A stretch of DNA of 64,000 bases from Bacteroidales bacterium (GTDB lineage Bacteria > Bacteroidota > Bacteroidia > Bacteroidales > F082): assembly GCA_015709215.1 (NCBI GenBank), contig JACCQN010000008.1, forward strand, positions 1 to 64,000. Reading direction: 5' to 3'. The notes under the pieces are model-generated. The model saw only the letters and a program-made list of their open reading frames with translations. It searched no databases and had not been told where the DNA came from. Both the position numbers and the translations under genes were made by a program. This document shows positions 40,784 to 63,846 of this stretch, piece by piece. The stretch's first letter is position 1, and each line of letters starts with the position of its first letter.

Positions 40784-41155
40784 ATGAAAAAGAAAATTTT
40801 AGTTATGGATGATGAGCTTAGCATCAGGATGCTCCTCGAAAATTTTCTGAGCAAAAGCTACGATGTCATCACTAAAAACGATGGTATGGAGGGCATAAAG
40901 TGGATGGAAGACGGTAATATGCCAGACCTGATTGTTGCTGATATCCAGATGCCCAATCTCGATGGTTATGAATTCATTAAGAATATTCGTTCCAGCGGGT
41001 TTTTCAAAGATGTACCTTTGATAATGCTATCTGGAATAGAAAGTTCTCAGGAAAAAGTGAAATGTCTCAAACTTGGCGCTAATGATTACATGGTCAAACC
41101 GTTCAATCCCGAAGAGCTTTCTATTCGTATAGAGTTACTTCTCGCCCGCAAATAA
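40784..41155 (+). CDS. Stand-alone response regulator (receiver domain only)
   Basis: This 123-residue protein is a single receiver domain with all phosphorylation residues: acidic pair Asp9-Asp10 (MDDE), phospho-acceptor Asp53 (DLIVADIQMP), Ser83 (MLSG) and Lys105 (VKPF). There is no output domain, so it must act by binding another protein. It is the first gene of the polysaccharide operon, 17 bases before the receiver-fused sugar transferase, which makes that protein or a histidine kinase the natural partner. Confidence 0.92.
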   Translation: MKKKILVMDDELSIRMLLENFLSKSYDVITKNDGMEGIKWMEDGNMPDLIVADIQMPNLDGYEFIKNIRSSGFFKDVPLIMLSGIESSQEKVKCLKLGANDYMVKPFNPEELSIRIELLLARK

Positions 41156-41172
41156 ATAAATGCCATTTTGTT

Positions 41173-42360
41173 ATGGACGAAACCAGTCTTCCATTAATTA
41201 AGGTGTTATATATCGGTGGTTATCCTGATTTTATTCAAGAACTTGAATCTAAGCCAGAATGGTTTGAGCTTACTGTTGTAGAAAATGGATTGAAAGCAAT
41301 GAGTCTGCTCAAAGACGATAATACAATTGAGGCTATTGTTTGCGAGGCCTATCTTCCCGGAATGAACGGGATTGATATAGCCGCTATGCGCGAAGTAAAA
41401 CAGATACATACTAACACGCCTTTTCTGCTCGTTTCGCCAGACAAAGATGAAAAGCAAAAAGAAAAAGCCTTCAAAGCCAACGTAAACGATTTTTACGAAG
41501 GCAAACTTGAAGCAGAAAAATTATTTTTACGAATTCATTATCTTAGAAAATACCTTAATTATTTCAGCACAGCCTCCGAAGAAACTAAAACCGCCAAAGA
41601 ATATAAAATTCCCTTGAATAAAAGGTTGTTTGATATTGTAGTTTCTTTTAGTGCACTTCTTGTGCTCTCTCCCCTGCTCATAATTGTAATGATTGCCATC
41701 AGGTTAGAATCGAAAGGTAAAGTTTTTTATACCAGTAAAAGAGTTGGAACCGGATACAAAATCTTTGATTTTTACAAACTAAGATCAATGCGTATTGGAG
41801 CAGATGCAGCACTCAAGGATTTAAAGCATTTGAATCAATACGAGGCCGAAAAAGCTATTGACGAAGATCATGACGAATGTCCCCGCTGTGCTGCTTTACC
41901 AGAAGGGAAATATTGCTCAGAAGTGCTCTATTCGGAAGGAAAAAAAGTGTGTGAATTTTGGTATTTTGAAAGAAAAAAACGGAAAGCTGATAGTACTTTC
42001 ATCAAGATTAAAGATGATCCAAGAGTTACACGGGTAGGTAGATTTATCAGGAATACTAGTATTGACGAATTACCACAATTGGTAAATGTATTAAAAGGTG
42101 ATATGTCAATTGTAGGCAACAGGCCCTTGCCACTCTATGAAGCTGAGATGCTAACATCCGACGATTGCAGTGAAAGATTCATGGGACCAGCCGGCATCAC
42201 AGGCCTTTGGCAGGTCGAAAAAAGAGGAAAAAGAGGAGTCTTGTCTGAAGAAGAAAGAAAAGCACTGGATAATCAATATGCGCGTAACTATTCTTTTTGG
42301 GGTGATATTAAGCTGATATTAAAGACTATACCTGCTTTGTTTCAAAAAGAAAATGTTTAA
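41173..42360 (+). CDS. Pseudo-receiver/phosphoglycosyl transferase fusion
   Basis: This 395-residue protein has two parts. Residues 8-125 form a receiver-like domain in which the acidic pocket is replaced by YIGGY and the phospho-acceptor position is Glu58 (VCEAYLPGMNG); Lys111 remains. Residues 148-392 are a bacterial sugar transferase (monotopic phosphoglycosyl transferase): membrane helix with Pro break (152-178), FYKLRSM near 200-206, catalytic dyad Asp298-Glu299 in SIDELPQL, and GDMSIVGNRPLPLYE. An insert with Cys236, Cys239, Cys248 and Cys260 may bind metal. The transferase would load the first sugar phosphate on undecaprenyl phosphate, starting the polysaccharide. The fused receiver suggests regulation by a signalling partner. 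Confidence 0.9.
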   Translation: MDETSLPLIKVLYIGGYPDFIQELESKPEWFELTVVENGLKAMSLLKDDNTIEAIVCEAYLPGMNGIDIAAMREVKQIHTNTPFLLVSPDKDEKQKEKAFKANVNDFYEGKLEAEKLFLRIHYLRKYLNYFSTASEETKTAKEYKIPLNKRLFDIVVSFSALLVLSPLLIIVMIAIRLESKGKVFYTSKRVGTGYKIFDFYKLRSMRIGADAALKDLKHLNQYEAEKAIDEDHDECPRCAALPEGKYCSEVLYSEGKKVCEFWYFERKKRKADSTFIKIKDDPRVTRVGRFIRNTSIDELPQLVNVLKGDMSIVGNRPLPLYEAEMLTSDDCSERFMGPAGITGLWQVEKRGKRGVLSEEERKALDNQYARNYSFWGDIKLILKTIPALFQKENV

Positions 42361-42501
42361 CTAAACTTTATCAAAAATTGTTAAAAACTCCTTGATAACT
42401 CTATGAACACCAAAATCAAGACTACAGCTTTTCTTTTTTATATTGCAGGGTTCTTATTTATCTGGAATAGAAAACAGGAGTTTAGACGACAACCGCAAAT
42501 T

Positions 42502-43266
42502 ATGCGAACAATTAATAGTTTTATTTTGATTGTTTTTTTGTTACTGGCTGCACCATTAGCAAAAGCACAAATACGTGCCGATGATGAATCAAAGCTATTT
42601 AATCCGCTTACTGATGACATCACCAAAAGATTGCCAACATTACGTGTGATGCTGGATTCAGCCGTGGCTAACGCCCCTTCGGTAAGGTATGAAGAGTTAA
42701 AAGCTGATTTTTATTATTACGAACAAAAAACGCAGGAAAGATATTGGCTTGAACATTTTAGTTTTAATCTGGATTGGAACTGGGGCAAATGGAATTTCCA
42801 TGATCGTGATGAACTTACGCGAATCGATCGTTTTTATCTAAGTGAATCGTATCGTGATAACTTTGCGGTTGGGTTTTATATCCGTTTTCCTTTCGCTACA
42901 CTCGTTGATAGAAAAAATCGAATCAATAAACAAAAAAAGTGGATTGAACTTTCGCTTGTGCAACGAGATATCAATAAAAAATATATTGAGGGCCAGGTAA
43001 TTGAAGCCTACAATATGATGATTCAATGGCAAAACTACATCCGAATTTATAACGACTACCAGAAGTTTACGATGATACAGATGCAAATGGCTCAAAATCA
43101 GTTTTTGAATGGAGAGATTACAACAGCGGAATATACCAGGCTCAAAGAGATTCAAACACGTGGAGCCGTTGAATATCAGCAGGCCATAACAGAATTTAGT
43201 AAGAATTATCAATTACTTGAGATACTAACAGGAATCAACTTCAATCTGATTAATGTACTAAGATAA
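42502..43266 (+). CDS. Half-size TolC-family protein
   Basis: This protein of about 254 residues has a signal peptide (INSFILIVFLLLAAPLAKAQ). The mature part resembles a single TolC protomer half: LPTLRVMLDSAVANAPSV, then a membrane-strand zone (FNLDWNWGKW, VGFYIRFPFATLVDR) and a long coiled-coil hairpin (about 145-245) ending LLEILTGINF. TolC proteins usually have two such repeats over 400 or more residues. An in-frame ATG at 42403 would add 33 residues and a second hydrophobic stretch; 42502 is preferred for its signal peptide. It lies eight bases before the Wzz-like gene, so it may be the outer-membrane partner of export. Confidence 0.65.
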   Translation: MRTINSFILIVFLLLAAPLAKAQIRADDESKLFNPLTDDITKRLPTLRVMLDSAVANAPSVRYEELKADFYYYEQKTQERYWLEHFSFNLDWNWGKWNFHDRDELTRIDRFYLSESYRDNFAVGFYIRFPFATLVDRKNRINKQKKWIELSLVQRDINKKYIEGQVIEAYNMMIQWQNYIRIYNDYQKFTMIQMQMAQNQFLNGEITTAEYTRLKEIQTRGAVEYQQAITEFSKNYQLLEILTGINFNLINVLR

Positions 43267-43273
43267 CCAAACA

Positions 43274-46081
43274 ATGGATATAGCCCAGTTTATACGTGTA
43301 TTTCGAAAAAACATCTTGCTGCTTATAGCTATTCCTTTGCTACTGGCTGTTGTGGTGTATTATTTTACACGAAATCAAAGTAAGGTATATGAATCTGAAG
43401 CAATTATCTATACGGGAATCACTACTGGTTATTCTATCGAATCAACCGCCCAAAGGCCAACCGACTTTTTTAATACCTCCGCACAATTCGACAACCTGAT
43501 TAATCTTTTTAACTCCCGCCAAACTATTGTAGAATCAGCCATTATGCTATTGGCTCAAAATCTTTCACTGGAAACCTACAACACACAATATATTTCGCGC
43601 GAGAATTTTGAAAAACTCAATCAAATGGTTCCCAAACGTGTGAAAGATATGGTAGTGAAAAATGGGAAAGCCGGTGTAGAGCGTGAAAAGGAAGATCAAA
43701 TAAAAAATTTGGAAAAAGAAATAAGAAACCTCGAAAAAGAAATCAACAAAAAGAAAAACAGGGCTTTGGTTGAGCTCACAAATGGAAATGGGAATAGAAA
43801 TGATGCAGTTGCAGAACCTCAAACAGGAATAAACAAAAACGATGAGCTTTATTCAGACAGCCCAGATACCGGGGTTACCCAAAAAACACATGTAGTTCAG
43901 GCAGGAGAAACCCTTTTATCCATCTCCCAAAAATATGGCATTAGCCTTACAAAACTTAGAGAATTAAATCAGTTTGATGGTCAATTGCGTGTTGGACAAC
44001 GTATTGTGATATCCTCCAATGAAGCTTCTTCCGGAAATTCCTATGGCTATTCCGAAAAAGTAGTAAATCTTTATGAAGAAGATGAGCTTTTAAATGAAGT
44101 AGTAAATATGCCAGCTGTTGACCCCAATCAGCAAGCTGGTTCAGCTTCAGCCTTTGACTTCGATTTATTAGCTGATTCTGAAACATTTACAATAGAAAAA
44201 GACCCAATTATACCCAGAGGTATTCGTGAAGATGATTTTTATAAAACCATTCAGAATTTTACCAATTATTACAACTCAAGCGACACCAATTTTATTTATG
44301 GCTTGCTGCACTACGGGCAAAGTCCGCACTACAGCATAACTTCTTTAAAAACCCTGCAAATATACAGGATTAATAATAGTGACCTGGTTCGCTTGATATA
44401 TACTTCTGATGATCCCGGAATTTGCCAGCAAACTTTAAAAATCATTGCACATGTTTTTGTAAAAAATTACAAACTGCTCAAAGAGAATCAAACTGATCTT
44501 GTTGTTGCCTATTTCAAAAGTCAGGTAGATTCTGCCGACCTGCAGCTTCAAGCCGCTGAGGATAGGCTATTAAAATTTAATAAAAAGAACAATATTATTA
44601 ACTATGCCGAGCAAACAAAATATATTGCTGCACAAAAAGAAGACCTTGATCTTTACTATCAAAACGAACAAGTAAGAATGGCTCAGGCCGCTGCATCCTT
44701 GCGCGAGCTCGAAACAAAACTTACCCGTAGGGATAGTATTTACCTAAAGAGCGACATGATCAATCAGAAAAGGAAACAGTTTGCGGATATTTCAGAAAAA
44801 ATTCTGATAAACGAGCTAGCTGAAGACTATGATCAACGAATTGGTAAAGAGATATCAAGGTTGCGAAATGAATCTGACCGACTAAGAGATGAAATAAAAC
44901 TGTACGTAGATCAGCTTTATTTGTATAGTCACTCAACACAGGGAGTTCCAATAGCTGCTTTATTGGATGAATGGCTTAAAAATGCGCTGAGTTATGAAGA
45001 AGCTAAAGCCAGCCTTGTTGTGCTTTCCCGAAGAAAAATGGATTTCGTAAGAACCTACCAACGCTTTGCCCCGCTTGGCGCTATGCTTAAAAGAATCGAG
45101 AGAGAGATTACTGTTGCAGAGCAATCCTACCTCGAACTCTTACGCAGCCTTAATCTTGCAAAAATGCGCCAGCAAAATCTGCAGATGGCAACCAATATCC
45201 GAATCGTTGACCCTCCTTATTTCCCTTTAAATGCAAAAGCTTCAAGAGCACGATTCCTGGTGCCTGCTGCAGCTGTGATTGGCTTTTTACTCGTCGCCTT
45301 TATTATTTTGGTTCTGGAATATTTTGATCAATCACTCAGAAATCCTGAACGTGTTGCTAAAACTATAAAACTTAAAATGGCTGGTGCTTATCCTTATCTG
45401 GGTTCGAACATCGAAATGAAAAATCGCGCAGTAATCAGTAATCGTCTGATTGAGATGATCCTTCAAAACTTGAAACTTCAGTTAACGCATAATGCCGTTT
45501 TTCCTGCACAGAAACCCTATTTTATTTTATTCTTTAGCACACAGGATCAGACAGGTAAAACATTTATTGCGCACAAACTAGCCAATAAACTCAGAACCTA
45601 TGGTGAAAAAGTTCTGGTTCTGAATTACAAAAGCAACGATGATATTGAGTCAGATCAGGATGATTTCAACTTGACCTATCCATACCAAATTGCTGAAAAC
45701 TTTGCGAAAGCAACCTCACTCAAAGATTTAATCAGTGATCACATCCTCAGAAAAGAAAACTACCTTTACGACTATATCTTCCTTGAAATTCCATCAATCA
45801 TCTATCACGATTATCCACTCGAACTTATGCAGGAAGTAGATGCCTCACTTATGCTTTTGAAATCCAGTAGCAAATGGAATAAAGCTGATGAAGGAGCACT
45901 GAATATACTTAAAAATGTGCTGCGGGAAGACCCCATGATCATTATGAATGAAGCAGAGGATTATGCTATCGAAGAGATCATATCAGGTATCAAAGTAAAG
46001 AAGTCATCTCCATTTTGGGCTAAAGTACGACACACACTTACCTACCCTGCCAGGATTAAAATTCAGGTAAAAGAAAGCTAA
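43274..46081 (+). CDS. Wzz/BY-kinase-like polysaccharide co-polymerase with LysM insert
   Basis: A 935-residue inner-membrane protein. A helix at 13-31 and another at about 661-683 bracket a long periplasmic region with coiled coils (135-165, 420-600), as in chain-length regulators. Inserted at about 205-247 is a LysM domain (HVVQAGETLLSISQKYGIS), a peptidoglycan/glycan-binding fold. The cytoplasmic C-terminal domain (700-935) resembles BY-kinase ATPases but is degraded: Walker A reads STQDQTGKT, the Walker A' Asp is Asn (VLVLNY), Walker B reads IFLEIP, and no Tyr cluster ends the protein. It probably controls chain length and export without kinase activity. Confidence 0.85.
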   Translation: MDIAQFIRVFRKNILLLIAIPLLLAVVVYYFTRNQSKVYESEAIIYTGITTGYSIESTAQRPTDFFNTSAQFDNLINLFNSRQTIVESAIMLLAQNLSLETYNTQYISRENFEKLNQMVPKRVKDMVVKNGKAGVEREKEDQIKNLEKEIRNLEKEINKKKNRALVELTNGNGNRNDAVAEPQTGINKNDELYSDSPDTGVTQKTHVVQAGETLLSISQKYGISLTKLRELNQFDGQLRVGQRIVISSNEASSGNSYGYSEKVVNLYEEDELLNEVVNMPAVDPNQQAGSASAFDFDLLADSETFTIEKDPIIPRGIREDDFYKTIQNFTNYYNSSDTNFIYGLLHYGQSPHYSITSLKTLQIYRINNSDLVRLIYTSDDPGICQQTLKIIAHVFVKNYKLLKENQTDLVVAYFKSQVDSADLQLQAAEDRLLKFNKKNNIINYAEQTKYIAAQKEDLDLYYQNEQVRMAQAAASLRELETKLTRRDSIYLKSDMINQKRKQFADISEKILINELAEDYDQRIGKEISRLRNESDRLRDEIKLYVDQLYLYSHSTQGVPIAALLDEWLKNALSYEEAKASLVVLSRRKMDFVRTYQRFAPLGAMLKRIEREITVAEQSYLELLRSLNLAKMRQQNLQMATNIRIVDPPYFPLNAKASRARFLVPAAAVIGFLLVAFIILVLEYFDQSLRNPERVAKTIKLKMAGAYPYLGSNIEMKNRAVISNRLIEMILQNLKLQLTHNAVFPAQKPYFILFFSTQDQTGKTFIAHKLANKLRTYGEKVLVLNYKSNDDIESDQDDFNLTYPYQIAENFAKATSLKDLISDHILRKENYLYDYIFLEIPSIIYHDYPLELMQEVDASLMLLKSSSKWNKADEGALNILKNVLREDPMIIMNEAEDYAIEEIISGIKVKKSSPFWAKVRHTLTYPARIKIQVKES

Positions 46082-46089
46082 CCTGAACC

Positions 46090-47520
46090 ATGAACAGATT
46101 CAGGCAAATAATAACCAGCAATAACTTTTTATCGCTGGCCAATAATGGCCTCGTAGCTGTGTTTGCTTTTCTGAGTTTTATTATGTTGGTCAGGATGGTG
46201 CCTCAGGAAACCTTTGGTGAATGGATTTTGTTTATTACCGCTTCCAATTTTCTGGATATGCTGCGCTTTGGTATTACAAGAACAGCACTTATCAGATTTT
46301 TGTCTGGTGCACATGACACTGAAGCTAAGTCTCTTATGGGGGCCAATAATGTTATTAACCTGATTTCGACAATCCTGCTTGCGTTAATTCTCTTCGTTAT
46401 TTACTATTTCGCTAAAGACACGATTCAAAATTCAGGCTTTGATTTATTTTTCAAATGGTATCCCCTGCTGGCATTTCTTACCTTGCCTTTCAATAATGCC
46501 CAGTCAGTTTTACAAGCTCAGCTTAGATTTGATAAAATGCTATGGCTGAGACTTTTAAACGTTGGTGGTTTTATGCTTTTTCTAACAGCAAATCTTTTTC
46601 TCAAATATGATATTTCGGTAATCCTTTGGGCTTATTTGCTTTCGAACCTGCTGAGTTCAATGCTGGCAAGTGCTTACAACTGGGATGGAATACGCTTTAT
46701 CTTTAAAACAAAAAGTGAAGCTGTAAAGACCATTTTAAACTTTGGAAAATACACCACTGGAACGCTCATTGGAAGTAATTTACTTAAAAGTTCTGATACC
46801 TTTATTATTGGATTGAGTGCTTTTTTAGGACCTTTGGGGGTGGCATTATACAGCATCCCGCTCAAACTTACCGAAATTATTGAAATCCCGTTAAGAAGTT
46901 TTGCAGCAACAGCTTTTCCGGGCATGTCGAAGGCCAGCCTTGATAATAATCCAAATGAGGTAAAAAGAATTTTTTACGCCAATGCCGGAGGTATGACCTT
47001 TTTGATGATCCCGGTGATGATTTTCAGTTTTATTTTCGCAAAAGAAATAGTTTTTATCCTTGGAGGTAGCGATTACATCATCACTGCTAATATCTTTAGG
47101 GTTTTTTGTATTTATGGATTGTTACTGCCAATTGACCGTTTTATTGGGGTTGCATTAGACAGCATTAATCGACCGAAAAGTAATTTTTATAAAGTTTTAT
47201 ATATGGCAAGTGCCAATATTATAGGTGATTTATTAGTCGTGTTTGGATTACCTACGCTGATCTTAGGATTCTCATTTTTCGTACTGTTGTTTTCTGGAAT
47301 AATGCCTGATAATGCCTATGATTTAGCTCATGGTTTCACGGTGATAAAAACGCTGGAAGGTGTTGCTTTTGTGACTATTTTATTCACATTAACAGGGATT
47401 TCTATTGGTTACTATTACCTAATTAAAACTATAGATATCAAATTTTTAGATATCTTCAGGATAGGTTATGCTGAAGGATCCAGGATAATAAAAACCTATC
47501 TACCTGACAGAAAAAGTTAA
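46090..47520 (+). CDS. wzx: Lipopolysaccharide/polysaccharide flippase (Wzx-like)
   Basis: This 476-residue membrane protein of the MATE/MOP oligosaccharide-flippase superfamily has 12-14 helices. The N-terminal block NGLVAVFAFLSFIMLVRMVP and the second-half start FGKYTTGTLIGSNLLKSSDTFIIG are typical of Wzx. It would move undecaprenyl-linked repeat units to the periplasmic face. It starts nine bases after the co-polymerase stop. A related role in teichuronic-type polymers cannot be excluded. Confidence 0.85.
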   Translation: MNRFRQIITSNNFLSLANNGLVAVFAFLSFIMLVRMVPQETFGEWILFITASNFLDMLRFGITRTALIRFLSGAHDTEAKSLMGANNVINLISTILLALILFVIYYFAKDTIQNSGFDLFFKWYPLLAFLTLPFNNAQSVLQAQLRFDKMLWLRLLNVGGFMLFLTANLFLKYDISVILWAYLLSNLLSSMLASAYNWDGIRFIFKTKSEAVKTILNFGKYTTGTLIGSNLLKSSDTFIIGLSAFLGPLGVALYSIPLKLTEIIEIPLRSFAATAFPGMSKASLDNNPNEVKRIFYANAGGMTFLMIPVMIFSFIFAKEIVFILGGSDYIITANIFRVFCIYGLLLPIDRFIGVALDSINRPKSNFYKVLYMASANIIGDLLVVFGLPTLILGFSFFVLLFSGIMPDNAYDLAHGFTVIKTLEGVAFVTILFTLTGISIGYYYLIKTIDIKFLDIFRIGYAEGSRIIKTYLPDRKS

Positions 47521-47538
47521 TTTTATTAATTTTATACA

Positions 47539-49035
47539 ATGATGTTTTCTTTTTTAAAGGATAAAATTGGTTCAGATAAACTGCATCACCCATTAGTGAT
47601 TGCAGCTTTATTTCTTGTTACTATTATCCTGGGTATAGTTATCGCTAAAGGTGGCATTTTGATTGCTGTGGCATTGGTTGTGCTTTTTCCTGTCATTATC
47701 TATTTTAACCGCTTTTTTACTAACCCCCGAATTGGAATCTATACCATTGTAATACTTGGCTTTATAGCTATTGGTTTAACCCGCTATATTCCAAACATTC
47801 CATTTGGTTTGTCCGTTGATGGATTCCTTGTCCTGACTTACATAGCAGTTTTTTTCAGATATTTTAATGATGGCATTAAATGGCAGAATGCCAACCGTGA
47901 TCTCACTTACCTGGCAATTATTTGGTTTGCTTATTCCGTCTTACAACTTGTTAATCCTGAAGCACTAAGTCGTACAGCATGGTTTTATGCCATGCGTGGT
48001 ATTTCGCTATATATGTTGTTGTTAGTGCCCTTAAGTTTTATGATTTTCAATAGGTTGCGATTTCTTTATGTATTCTTGTACTTATGGGGTATTTTTTCCA
48101 TTCTTGGAACACTCAAAGGTTTACAACAGCTTTATATAGGTCCCGACAGCGCTGAACAGTACTGGTTAGATACTGTTGGAGCTGTAACTCACATCTTATT
48201 TGGAGAGTTGCGTGTTTTTTCATTTTTCAGCGATGCAGGACAATTTGGTGCTGCCCAGGGAGCTGCGGGTGTTGTAGGGCTTTTAGTTGCCATGAGTATT
48301 AAAGGTTTGCCCAATAAAATATTTTTCACAATTATGGGTGTGATGGGACTGTGGGGCATGATGATTTCGGGAACTCGCGGAGCAATGATAGTGCCGATGG
48401 TCGCTGGTATAACATATATCATTCACAGAAAAAACTTTAGGGTTATCGTAATTGGAGGTTTAATTCTTGCTCTTGTTTATGCCTTTTTTGCATACACATA
48501 TATTGGACAAAGCAACTCTCAAATCAGACGTATGCGAACTGCCTTCAGACCCGAAGAAGATGAATCATATCTTGTGCGTCTCGAAAACAGAAGGATTCTG
48601 GCAGGATATTTAGCTACACGACCTTTTGGTGGAGGAATTGGAAGTGCGGGTGATTGGGGAAAACGTTTTTCGCCACAAGGTTTTCTAGCACAAATTGCTA
48701 CAGATAGCTGGTATGTTCAAATATGGGCTGAGCAAGGTATAATTGGATTGATTTTGCACCTTTTTATATTATCTTACATCTTAATAAAGGGCTCATACCT
48801 GATAATGTTCAAACTTAAGGAGCCTGAATTGCGTGGCATAATGAGTGCCCTCATGGCAGGATTTACCGGAATCATGGGGGCTAGTTACGGAAACGGAGTA
48901 TTAGGTCAAATGCCTACCGGGATTTTGATCTACATCAGTTGGACCATGATCTTTATGAGCAGACAACTTGAAAGAGAATATACTTATCTGGTAAGCCAAG
49001 GAAAATCACCATGGTCGCTTGAAAATAATACCTGA
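47539..49035 (+). CDS. O-antigen polymerase/ligase-type membrane protein (Wzy/WaaL-like)
   Basis: This 498-residue protein has about 11 helices and the large periplasmic loop (about 320-390) characteristic of the Wzy_C superfamily. ISGTRGAMIVPMVAGI near 273 and the loop RLENRRILAGYLATRPFGGGIG near 343-364 are landmarks. It could polymerise the repeat unit or ligate the polymer to a lipid; family members cannot be told apart by sequence. As the only such protein in the operon, polymerase is favoured. Confidence 0.82.
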   Translation: MMFSFLKDKIGSDKLHHPLVIAALFLVTIILGIVIAKGGILIAVALVVLFPVIIYFNRFFTNPRIGIYTIVILGFIAIGLTRYIPNIPFGLSVDGFLVLTYIAVFFRYFNDGIKWQNANRDLTYLAIIWFAYSVLQLVNPEALSRTAWFYAMRGISLYMLLLVPLSFMIFNRLRFLYVFLYLWGIFSILGTLKGLQQLYIGPDSAEQYWLDTVGAVTHILFGELRVFSFFSDAGQFGAAQGAAGVVGLLVAMSIKGLPNKIFFTIMGVMGLWGMMISGTRGAMIVPMVAGITYIIHRKNFRVIVIGGLILALVYAFFAYTYIGQSNSQIRRMRTAFRPEEDESYLVRLENRRILAGYLATRPFGGGIGSAGDWGKRFSPQGFLAQIATDSWYVQIWAEQGIIGLILHLFILSYILIKGSYLIMFKLKEPELRGIMSALMAGFTGIMGASYGNGVLGQMPTGILIYISWTMIFMSRQLEREYTYLVSQGKSPWSLENNT

Positions 49036-60089: not shown

Positions 60090-60890
60090 ATGCAGTTAAA
60101 AAAAATTATTCCGCTTGGCTTGGGCATTTTCTTAAAGAAGAATTATCTTTTTATCAAAGGCATGGCCTATCGTGGCAATCAGTTTTACTGTCCCTTTTGT
60201 GATACCGGATTTAAAGACTTTTTGGATGGAGGAACAGATGTGCCTATCAACGAAAAACTTGATGTTATAGGAGCAGGAAAACGCCCCAAAACAATTTGTC
60301 CGGCCTGCCATTCCAATGATCGCGAGAGGTTATTGCACTGGCTTTTTGAAAACCGCTTTCAGCTATCAGCCTCAGATAAAATCCTCCATATTGCTCCCGA
60401 ACCCTGCTTAGGGCGCTATTTACAGGCGAAAAGTCCGAAAGGTTATATCTCTGGCGTAAAGTATTACGAAGGCTTTTATTATCCACCTGGTGTAAAGTTA
60501 ATGGATTTATTAAACCTGCCTTTTGAAAATAATCATTTCGATTGGGTCATTTGCAATCACGTTTTGGAGCATATTCCTGATGATCAGGCCGCTATGAAAG
60601 CTATTTTTAATGTTTTGAAGAAAGGTGGAAAAGCAATTCTGCAGGTGCCATGGTCTCCCCAACTTGATCAGACAAAAGAAGATTTTAGCATTCAGGATCC
60701 AAAAGAGCGGGAAGCAGCTTTTGGTCAATTCGACCACCTAAGAATTTACGGTAAAGATTACACAACAAGGCTTAAAAATGCTGGTTTTCAAATTAATAAA
60801 CTTGAATTTGAAGACCTCGGCATCTTGAAAAATGACATTGAGAAGATGCAACTTAATAAGAAAGAATGTATCTTTATTGTCACAAAATGA
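60090..60890 (+). CDS. SAM-dependent methyltransferase with zinc-ribbon N-terminus
   Basis: This 266-residue protein starts with a CxxC...CxxC segment (FYCPFCDTGF near 29 and CPACHSNDRERLL near 70) typical of a class of Bacteroidota glycan-locus methyltransferases. The class I fold follows: ILHIAPEPCLGRYL near 98, VICNHVLEHIPDD near 151-163 and KKGGKAILQVPW near 178. Sugar O-methylation is inferred. The gene follows the beta-helix gene by 11 bases. Confidence 0.82.
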   Translation: MQLKKIIPLGLGIFLKKNYLFIKGMAYRGNQFYCPFCDTGFKDFLDGGTDVPINEKLDVIGAGKRPKTICPACHSNDRERLLHWLFENRFQLSASDKILHIAPEPCLGRYLQAKSPKGYISGVKYYEGFYYPPGVKLMDLLNLPFENNHFDWVICNHVLEHIPDDQAAMKAIFNVLKKGGKAILQVPWSPQLDQTKEDFSIQDPKEREAAFGQFDHLRIYGKDYTTRLKNAGFQINKLEFEDLGILKNDIEKMQLNKKECIFIVTK

Positions 60891-60900
60891 GCAATTAGTT

Positions 60901-63231
60901 ATGAGGTTCAACCTGCCCAATAAATATTTTTTTTTAGTCTTTGCTTTCAGACTTTCTTGTTGCTATCTTTCTGTTTTCGGACAAAAAACTTTTGCTTCAC
61001 AAACAACATTTCCATCCGAAATGATCGCCAGAGATATCCTGCTCATTACCCAATCACTTTCTGACACTACGCTATTGCCGAATGAGGAATTCGTTGAAAA
61101 AACACTTTCGATCTGTATATCACTCATAAATTGGGACTTGAATAGTGTTGCGGCTGGTTTTCTCGATTTAACTGCTGATCGTTTTAATCAGATTGCAAAC
61201 AAAGAAAGCAAGCTTGAATTTATGCATTTACAAATCATAGCAAGCGAAAATCAGCCTTCAGTAGATAAACTAAAAAACTATCTGATACTTGCTGAATCTG
61301 TTGGCAATGATTTGTATCAAAAATTTGGTTATGCCTTGATTATCAATCATTATCGCAAAAATAATGAAGTATCAAAAGCATTACTCTATTACAGTGCGGC
61401 AAAACCCTGGATAAAAGATCATAGTGCTACCTTACCTCTTTTCCTCGAATCTAAAATCTTAACAGGTTTTCCTGATAAATCAACATTTGATTCGTTATGG
61501 TCTGATCGCTTAAAACGAACAGCACTTCGTCCGGAAAATAAATGGTTTCTCAAAAAATACTTAGCACAAGAAATCAATCCTGATTTTGATTTTATTAATC
61601 TATTATTCAAAGACTTAGAAATATTTTCTTCCTCAAGATTGAAAGCTCTTGTATGGCAGAATCGCGCTAATTCGTTATTAAAAGAAGATTCGCTTGAAGC
61701 ATTTAACAGTTTTCTAACTGCTTCTGATTATTTTAACCAGGCAGATTCCTTAAATAAATTGTATGTCAATGATTTAAATGATAGCTTACTTAAGCTACAT
61801 TCCCAAGTTTCATCAGAATCCGGTGATAAAAAATTAATTAACTGGAAAAACCTGACTGCAGCATTTTTATTCTTTTTTAGTTTGTTTCTTATAGGGAGAC
61901 TAATTCAATGGAAACAAAAAGTGAAAAAGATAATTTCAGAAGATACTACGTCAATAATTGAAATTAAAAAAAAGATACAAATAGCTAATGATCAAGTTGT
62001 TGAGCGTGTAAAGTTGCGCGAGAAAGCAATTGAGTCCGAGTTAAAAGAAAGTGAAAATCTGGATAAAATTTTGAAAATAACACTCAAAAATGTTGAAGAA
62101 GCCAATTTTCAAAAGAATGCCTTTATGGCCAATATGAGCCACGAAATAAGAACACCATTAAACGGCATTTTGGGCTTTTCGAGTTTGCTAGGGTTAGAAC
62201 TTGCAAAAATTGATGAACCTGAACTTTTTGAATACGCAAACAGTATTCAAAAAAGCGGTGACAAACTGCTTCACCTTTTAAATAATATAATAGATATCAG
62301 CAGGTTACAAGCTAATGATTTTGCTCTAAAAAAACAAAGGATCACTCTAAAAGAAGTAACAGCAGAAATTCTTCTTGAAAATAAATCCAGAGCTTTAGAC
62401 AAAGGACTTACCTTGTTAAACGAAACGAAAGAAGATATTTGGATTGAAACAGACGGACATATTTTAAAGCGCATTTTATGCGAGATTGTTGACAATAGTA
62501 TCAAATACACTAACAAAGGGTATATCAAGCTGTTAACGGAAAAACTTTCTGATCAGGAAAGTGTAAAAATTACATTAACCGACACCGGACTAGGGATTGA
62601 CAGCAGTTATATCGAGGTAATTTTTGAGCCATTCCGGCAAGATAAACAAGGTTATTCTAAACAATACCAGGGCGCAGGATTAGGTCTTCCACTTGCAAAA
62701 AGTATGACTGAACTTCTTGGGGGTCAATTCATTATAACATCAGAAAAAGCACATGGAACTACAATTTCTATCACATTACCTCTTCGTCTTCAGCCAGGAA
62801 AATTTGATGTAATTCCTGAAAATAAGGAAAAACGTACTAAAGGACTGTCGGTTAAGCCAAATCCAAATATCCTTTTAGTGGAGGATGATCATGCTAATAA
62901 AATTGTCATTACCAAATATCTTGAAAAGTTTGGTCGGGTTACTCCGGCATCGCGCGGCGAAGATACTATTCAAGCTATAGTGGAATCTGTTAAAAGTCAA
63001 AAGATTTTTGATATCATTATGATGGATATCAATCTGCCTGCACCTTGGGACGGCATTAAATTAATGAATTATATTCGGGAGAACTATCCTGAGTATAAAA
63101 CAGTTCCATTTATAGCACAAACTGCCTATGGTATGGCAGGAGATGAGCTACGATTACTTGATGCCGGCTTTGATGCGTATATTGCCAAGCCAATTACAAT
63201 GGAACAAATAAAAAATATTTTTGTCATATAA
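60901..63231 (+). CDS. Hybrid histidine kinase-response regulator
   Basis: This 776-residue protein has an N-terminal signal/anchor (YFFLVFAFRLSCCYLSVFG), a helical periplasmic sensor region (about 35-310) with repeat-like hairpins, a membrane helix (about 320-337), a coiled coil, HisKA with phospho-His414 (NMSHEIRTPLNG), HATPase (NSIKYTNKG, DTGLGID, GAGLGLPLAKS), and a C-terminal receiver (ILLVEDDHANK, phospho-Asp709 in IIMMDINLP, AKPIT). No HPt or DNA-binding domain is present, so the phosphate must leave to another protein. A start at 60832 would lie inside the methyltransferase gene. It is the last gene of the operon. Confidence 0.93.
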   Translation: MRFNLPNKYFFLVFAFRLSCCYLSVFGQKTFASQTTFPSEMIARDILLITQSLSDTTLLPNEEFVEKTLSICISLINWDLNSVAAGFLDLTADRFNQIANKESKLEFMHLQIIASENQPSVDKLKNYLILAESVGNDLYQKFGYALIINHYRKNNEVSKALLYYSAAKPWIKDHSATLPLFLESKILTGFPDKSTFDSLWSDRLKRTALRPENKWFLKKYLAQEINPDFDFINLLFKDLEIFSSSRLKALVWQNRANSLLKEDSLEAFNSFLTASDYFNQADSLNKLYVNDLNDSLLKLHSQVSSESGDKKLINWKNLTAAFLFFFSLFLIGRLIQWKQKVKKIISEDTTSIIEIKKKIQIANDQVVERVKLREKAIESELKESENLDKILKITLKNVEEANFQKNAFMANMSHEIRTPLNGILGFSSLLGLELAKIDEPELFEYANSIQKSGDKLLHLLNNIIDISRLQANDFALKKQRITLKEVTAEILLENKSRALDKGLTLLNETKEDIWIETDGHILKRILCEIVDNSIKYTNKGYIKLLTEKLSDQESVKITLTDTGLGIDSSYIEVIFEPFRQDKQGYSKQYQGAGLGLPLAKSMTELLGGQFIITSEKAHGTTISITLPLRLQPGKFDVIPENKEKRTKGLSVKPNPNILLVEDDHANKIVITKYLEKFGRVTPASRGEDTIQAIVESVKSQKIFDIIMMDINLPAPWDGIKLMNYIRENYPEYKTVPFIAQTAYGMAGDELRLLDAGFDAYIAKPITMEQIKNIFVI

Positions 63232-63373
63232 ACAGATTAATACCAGACACTTGAAATAAAAATGATAAATGAGATAACTTTCGCAGTAATTTTTTTAAAT
63301 CTTTATCGCATTTTAATCTAATCCAAATAAAAAAAAACACGACATATTTTAATAATAGTGCATTGGATTTATC

Positions 63374-63381
63374 TACCTTTG
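63374..63381 (+). promoter_or_regulatory. -7 element (TACCTTTG) for the second stand-alone response regulator
   Basis: An exact TAnnTTTG match would start transcription near 63388, leaving a leader of about 60 bases that contains the hairpin at 63409-63426. Confidence 0.5.
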
Positions 63382-63408
63382 TGCTAGAACAAAATAATAA
63401 ACAACAAA

Positions 63409-63426
63409 GGAATTAGCTTTAATTCC
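63409..63426 (+). promoter_or_regulatory. Leader hairpin before the response-regulator gene
   Basis: A perfect 7-bp stem (GGAATTA at 63409-63415, TAATTCC at 63420-63426) has a 4-base GCTT loop. It is not followed by a T-run, so it is not a terminator. It lies between the -7 box and the GGAG at 63437-63440. Confidence 0.4.
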
Positions 63427-63450
63427 CTCAAAAAGTGGAGAGCAAACATC

Positions 63451-63846
63451 TTGGATACCAAGGAAAACAAAAAAACGCTTCATATTCTGCTTGTTGAAGA
63501 CAACGAGCTAAATCAAAAGTTTGCCATGGCTGTTCTCAAGCGCCTTGGGCATACTTATGAGTTGGCGGAAAACGGAGCTATTGGTTTCCAAAAATATCTC
63601 AACGGTAAATTCGATCTCATCCTGATGGACATACAGATGCCCGAAATGAACGGCATTGAAGCCACAATTGCCATTCGGGAACACGAACGGAAGAACAATA
63701 TCAAACCCATTCCCATAATTGCAGTTACGGCCTTTGCCATGGAACACGATAGAATAAATTGCATGGAAGCTGGAATGAATGAGTTTCTTACAAAGCCTTA
63801 CAAGCCTCAAGATATGTGGGCTAAAATCGAAAAAGTACTCGAATAA
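63451..63846 (+). CDS. Stand-alone response regulator (receiver domain only), TTG start
   Basis: This 131-residue protein is a single receiver domain with ILLVEDNELNQKFA near 12-25 (Glu16/Asp17), phospho-Asp60 (DLILMDIQMPEMNG), Thr in VTAFA and Lys113-region FLTKPYKP. The ELNQK helix resembles receivers that accept phosphate from hybrid kinases. No ATG is available; TTG 63451 has GGAG ten bases upstream. It lies 219 bases after the hybrid kinase gene with its own promoter, so it is likely its partner but separately regulated. A strong terminator follows. Confidence 0.9.
   Translation: MDTKENKKTLHILLVEDNELNQKFAMAVLKRLGHTYELAENGAIGFQKYLNGKFDLILMDIQMPEMNGIEATIAIREHERKNNIKPIPIIAVTAFAMEHDRINCMEAGMNEFLTKPYKPQDMWAKIEKVLE

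Follow-up and report, generated by a model that had tools for sequence, protein, structure and literature searches.

The polysaccharide co-polymerase (PCP) encoded in the window, i.e. the whole stretch of 64,000 nucleotides analysed here, is a Wzc-like protein that carries a real LysM domain, neither a chance match nor a one-off fusion. Its gene lies in a Wzx/Wzy cluster, directly behind a gene for a half-size outer-membrane protein of the TolC type (OEP). We give roughly even chances to the protein being a co-polymerase of the Wzx/Wzy polysaccharide pathway whose outer-membrane partner is this half-size TolC-type protein, and not an OPX protein. The relevant features are the following:

40784-41155, + strand: single-domain response regulator (Pfam Response_reg, 3.8e-26)
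41173-42360, + strand: initiating phosphoglycosyl transferase (PGT) fused to a receiver-like domain (Pfam Bac_transf, 1.3e-57; Response_reg, 3.2e-8)
42403-43266, + strand: half-size TolC-type outer-membrane protein with one OEP repeat (Pfam OEP, 41.2 bits; AlphaFold2; Foldseek)
43274-46081, + strand: LysM-bearing Wzc-like PCP, 935 residues, ATG start (open reading frame; partial Wzz/GNVR; profile matches to PslE and Wzc; fold match to Wzc)
43289-43375, + strand: transmembrane helix 1, residues 6-34 (hydropathy; AlphaFold2 helix 14-32)
43655-44227, + strand: insert, residues about 128-318, made of helix 134-169 followed by LysM between two variable linkers (alignments; missing from LysM-less relatives)
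43673-43780, + strand: helix preceding LysM within the insert, residues 134-169 (AlphaFold2; mean pairwise identity 0.65 for coil 128-165)
43889-44011, + strand: LysM domain, residues 206-246 (Pfam PF01476; AlphaFold2 fold; conservation in relatives)
44414-45190, + strand: long helical arms, residues 381-639 (AlphaFold2)
45239-45337, + strand: transmembrane helix 2, residues 656-688 (hydropathy; AlphaFold2 helix 659-683)
45338-46063, + strand: degenerate BY-kinase-like domain (sequence motifs; fold matches to kinase domains 3la6 and 3bfv)
46090-47520, + strand: Wzx-type flippase (Pfam Polysacc_synt, 8e-14)
47539-49035, + strand: Wzy-type polymerase (Pfam Wzy_C, 1.4e-11)

The LysM domain and its host protein

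The original prediction, which placed a LysM domain at about residues 205-247, was confirmed by two approaches. First, the PF01476 profile scored 40.3 bits on residues 206-246, against a curated cut-off of 20.9 (E 3e-10). Second, the AlphaFold2 model has the beta-alpha-alpha-beta arrangement of LysM in this segment, with a strand at 204-207, helices at 214-221 and 225-232 and a strand at 243-247 (pLDDT about 78-88 across residues 201-250). The wall-binding LysM proteins LytE (8i2e, 1.7e-7) and 4uz2/4uz3 (5.7e-6) were matched by sequence in the PDB. A chance match or a misprediction is ruled out by the E-value, the fold and the conservation among relatives. LysM domains in general bind GlcNAc polymers.

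The protein had also been rightly recognized as Wzz-type. In the 935-residue sequence the Wzz and GNVR profiles both stayed under cut-off (17.0 bits against 25.5 for Wzz, 20.8 bits for GNVR); across the 48 family members, at E<=0.01, Wzz was found in 28 and GNVR in 43. A PDB search with the family profile retrieved PslE and Escherichia coli Wzc, and the structure closest to the predicted fold is E. coli Wzc (9r64, E 3.6e-17). Hydropathy gives two hydrophobic helices only (6-34 and 656-688). The protein has the makeup of a co-polymerase, with a Wzc-like fold and a transmembrane helix at either end of a periplasmic part that contains long helices, and its gene is clustered with genes for Wzx, Wzy and an initiating transferase, as for Wzz/Wzc-type co-polymerases. 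Since residues 35-655 lie between the only two transmembrane helices, they would be periplasmic, LysM included, if the protein spans the membrane as Wzc does; the proposed periplasmic location holds by this analogy. The further proposal that LysM sits between the coiled coils was wrong, as model and alignment place the insert in the membrane-proximal part of the protein, upstream of the long arms and behind its own helix.

The C-terminal domain looks like a pseudokinase. GK[ST] is the sole motif of active BY-kinase PCP-2a proteins that is kept (G761 and K762 are invariant), the Walker A' and B aspartates are absent in the members inspected, and the PCP has no tyrosine-rich C-terminal tail. In Myxococcus, the tyrosine pseudokinase EcpK is reported to be important for exopolysaccharide synthesis (PMC12004946).

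Distribution and history of the LysM insert

Pfam, alignment and locus counts cover 48 PCP relatives, and most of the LysM carriers are metagenome assemblies. LysM was detected by Pfam in 28 of the 48, and an insert of more than 100 residues is also present in 28 (the numbers were compared, not the individual rows). The domain is conserved across the family of the host and several related families, being present throughout the sampled f1 homologues of the alignment, plus f14, f41, f21 and f103. Two LysM-like units were read by eye in eight members of f1, f14 and f41 and in four of f103, and this doubling fits avidity. In most LysM-less members the slot of the insert holds 15-20 residues in the alignments, versus 205 in the 935-residue protein; two sequences that belong to the order of the host and have the same type of cluster carry 20 and 15 (L068 and L069, respectively). 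Most PCP relatives in the wider class and phylum samples have about 680-810 residues, too short for the insert. The open frame of one phylum-level PCP relative (L118, G674:C1:63305-65446) is unusually long, at 1073 residues.

Mean pairwise identity is 0.65 in the coil at 128-165, 0.19 in linker 1, 0.54 in LysM and 0.20 in linker 2. The linkers around LysM were modelled with low confidence (pLDDT <50 at 169-201, 250-272 and 278-307). Segment-wise dN/dS was uninformative because synonymous sites are saturated. LysM is maintained while the adjacent linkers drift, in keeping with a binding module on a tether. That the insert is neutral or vestigial and plays no part in export might be suspected from the presence of the same gene cluster in LysM-less relatives; we consider it highly improbable, because the domain is conserved where its linkers are not, occurs throughout the sampled f1 as well as in f14, f41, f21 and f103, and is duplicated rather than decaying.

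In a core-only tree, with the insert columns removed, all LysM carriers fall within one supported clade (98/91). This clade also includes the LysM-less rows L080 and L082; support is weak for the branches on which L067, L080 and L082 sit. Parsimony gives 2 LysM changes on this tree. A topology in which all 28 carriers are held together was not rejected (p-AU 0.56) and had a slightly better likelihood, so that repeated independent gains are not needed. A single acquisition of LysM is the simplest reading of these comparisons.

Outer-membrane partner and gene cluster

An OEP-sized ORF (236-300 residues) lies directly upstream of the PCP gene in 40 of the 48 loci, with a gap of -3 to 26 nt, whether or not LysM is present; most of the remaining loci are cut by the ends of contigs or stretches. 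Pfam OEP was found in all 11 upstream proteins tested, i.e. the window's own and 10 counterparts. This suggests that the half-size TolC-type protein is a standing partner of the PCP across Bacteroidota. The likely start of the window OEP gene is 42502, and a stretch resembling a signal peptide comes next. The AlphaFold2 model of its product (pLDDT 88.5) has a single TolC repeat, composed of two strands and their helices, in place of the two tandem repeats per chain of TolC/OEP factors, and Foldseek matched it to OprN, CmeC and TolC. With one repeat per chain, a 12-strand TolC-like barrel would need six copies. A contact between OEP and PCP is suggested by gene order.

No Poly_export (PF02563) gene is present in the PCP cluster, with or without LysM. 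On contigs with a LysM-bearing PCP there was no OPX match, except in the single-contig genome G008, where it lies 1.6 Mb away, and four genomes that are 92-98% complete (G018, G230, G256 and G320) had no OPX match anywhere; this absence could reflect incompleteness, as most LysM carriers are metagenome assemblies. The genome of the window has one OPX gene, on contig C82, beside a canonical PCP distinct from the one described here. The original prediction had raised the question whether OPX genes are missing where LysM and Wzz occur in one protein. A link of this kind was not borne out, as the OPX-free OEP-PCP cluster is equally present in LysM-less relatives. LysM as a cause or explanation of OPX loss is ruled out, the OEP arrangement being common to the LysM-less relatives. 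Their sharing of the cluster indicates that the OPX-less arrangement is older than LysM; the change of outer-membrane partner came first, and LysM was added later.

Across the family the genes keep one order: response regulator, receiver/PGT fusion, OEP, PCP, Wzx, Wzy and glycosyltransferases. At 40784-42360, the free response regulator has intact phospho-acceptor residues, and in relatives the acceptor Asp of the receiver-like N-terminus of the PGT fusion is replaced, mostly by Glu. The fusion recalls the EpsW-EpsZ pair of Myxococcus, in which EpsW activates EpsZ (PMC12802240), although here the enzyme itself carries one of the receivers. The fused receiver could be a built-in phospho-mimic that docks with the free response regulator. 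Downstream of the glycosyltransferase genes, 60832-63846 encodes a hybrid histidine kinase as well as another receiver protein, a possible signalling input to the cluster.

Possible role of LysM and comparison with known systems

A reasonable reading, in line with the original prediction, is that LysM links the export machine to the wall or to the chain being made. A PCP oligomer would form a periplasmic conduit, and PCP and OEP together would form one conduit without OPX. Each PCP subunit would present one LysM (two in some relatives) on the conserved helix and flexible linkers, and the resulting LysM ring may grip the GlcNAc-MurNAc strands of peptidoglycan. Such a grip would fix the conduit in the wall and help its line-up with the OEP. 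Anchoring of the co-polymerase/OEP conduit to peptidoglycan is, in our estimate, about as probable as all other roles of LysM together. Flexible linkers and domain doubling are usual in wall-binding proteins. We prefer a tether to product binding because LysM follows a projecting helix on long, fast-evolving linkers that appear flexible, because it is doubled in some lineages, and because most LysM-less relatives need nothing in the insert slot. Many relatives do without LysM, which the OEP-PCP design therefore does not require.

Alternatively, LysM could bind the product of the pathway itself, either a GlcNAc-containing repeat unit or the growing chain, standing in for the jellyroll of Wzc; it would then capture lipid-linked units from Wzx or hold the chain during polymerisation. 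The general binding of GlcNAc polymers by LysM would suit this role, and the profile alignment, approximate because of low identity and gaps, sets the insert over a stretch with Wzc residues 112-204. In E. coli these residues form a jellyroll that was proposed to recognise capsule repeat units; on an array it bound GlcNAc/Gal glycans, and deleting it nearly abolished the capsule (PMC12881504). However, the jellyroll is packed at the membrane, whereas LysM hangs on fast-evolving linkers of low pLDDT. The 15-20 residues found in this slot in most LysM-less relatives imply that no glycan reader is needed there, and the explanation presumes GlcNAc in the polymer. Overall we judge it unlikely, although it is the leading competitor of the tether. 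Less probable still, and by a good measure, is that LysM recruits the machine to, or senses, a wall feature other than an anchor point, siting it at division or hydrolase-opened places or gating synthesis by the state of the wall. The conserved response regulator and receiver-PGT fusion that head the operon would agree with this reading, as would NCBIfam matches of the LysM segment to the wall hydrolases and activators DipM, MepM and ActS. These matches are at the LysM regions of those proteins, far under cut-offs, and reflect the shared LysM only, and the conserved cluster has no hydrolase gene.

For the peptidoglycan tether, the wider interest is that the passage of polysaccharide machines through the peptidoglycan layer is little understood, and a co-polymerase with an evolutionarily maintained LysM is a natural handle on it. 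In the open-licence PMC literature we found neither a LysM-bearing co-polymerase (Wzz, PCP or chain-length determinant) nor a TolC/OEP-type partner in a Wzx/Wzy cluster described. The data suggest that Bacteroidota have an uncharted form of the polysaccharide export machine. Tentatively, and short of an even chance, this would be an OPX-independent Wzx/Wzy machine with a pseudokinase PCP docked directly to a hexameric half-size TolC, in which the PCP of one lineage has its own peptidoglycan anchor. If true, it would be a further outer-membrane route for Wzx/Wzy polymers, beside Wza-type and OPX/beta-barrel translocons. Judging from the OEP pairing, a sizeable group of polymers in Bacteroidota may exit by a TolC-type route and so escape surveys of OPX genes. 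The OEP part is open to testing now in LysM-less relatives from culturable Parabacteroides.

Several LysM-less relatives have similar clusters. Those of Parabacteroides distasonis and Hymenobacter yonginensis are composed of a response regulator, a sugar transferase, a TolC family protein, the PCP and Wzy, and Salinibacter ruber has a similar gene set, rearranged. Their PCPs have about 700-727 residues by annotated coordinates and were judged LysM-less from this length, too short for the insert. In the public annotation of all three, made independently, the neighbour is a 'TolC family protein' and the PCP a 'hypothetical protein'. The OEP-PCP polysaccharide clusters of Parabacteroides, Salinibacter and Hymenobacter lie on plasmid-typed records (L139, L140 and L141), which suggests horizontal spread.

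The canonical pair of OPX and BY-kinase PCP in the same genome (C82; L136:3372-6623) likewise has the PCP right behind the outer-membrane gene, but its partner is a Poly_export/SLBB OPX protein. The C82 PCP has Wzz, GNVR and AAA_31 above cut-off and a Tyr/Gly-rich tail, and lacks LysM. The same genome also encodes a 908-residue protein that combines several LysM domains with a periplasmic-binding-protein-like region (L137:1934-4660, G000 contig C89). The window OEP resembles the efflux proteins TolC, OprN and CmeC in its OEP domain and TolC-repeat fold. Those proteins have two repeats and an efflux-pump partner, while the window OEP has one repeat (about 230-250 residues when mature) and a PCP partner. 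Pseudomonas PslE (PDB 9v6l) is the best sequence-profile match of the PCP among solved structures (E 7.4e-17), in an alignment that begins downstream of the insert and does not cover LysM. E. coli Wzc, a PCP-2a/tyrosine kinase, has the same order of N-terminal transmembrane helix, alpha/beta part, helical arms, second transmembrane helix and C-terminal P-loop domain, with an additional periplasmic domain in roughly the same slot. In Wzc this slot holds the jellyroll, and the neighbours are the OPX protein Wza and the phosphatase Wzb; the PCP described here has LysM on a helix and linkers, a degenerate kinase domain, and an OEP gene adjoining.
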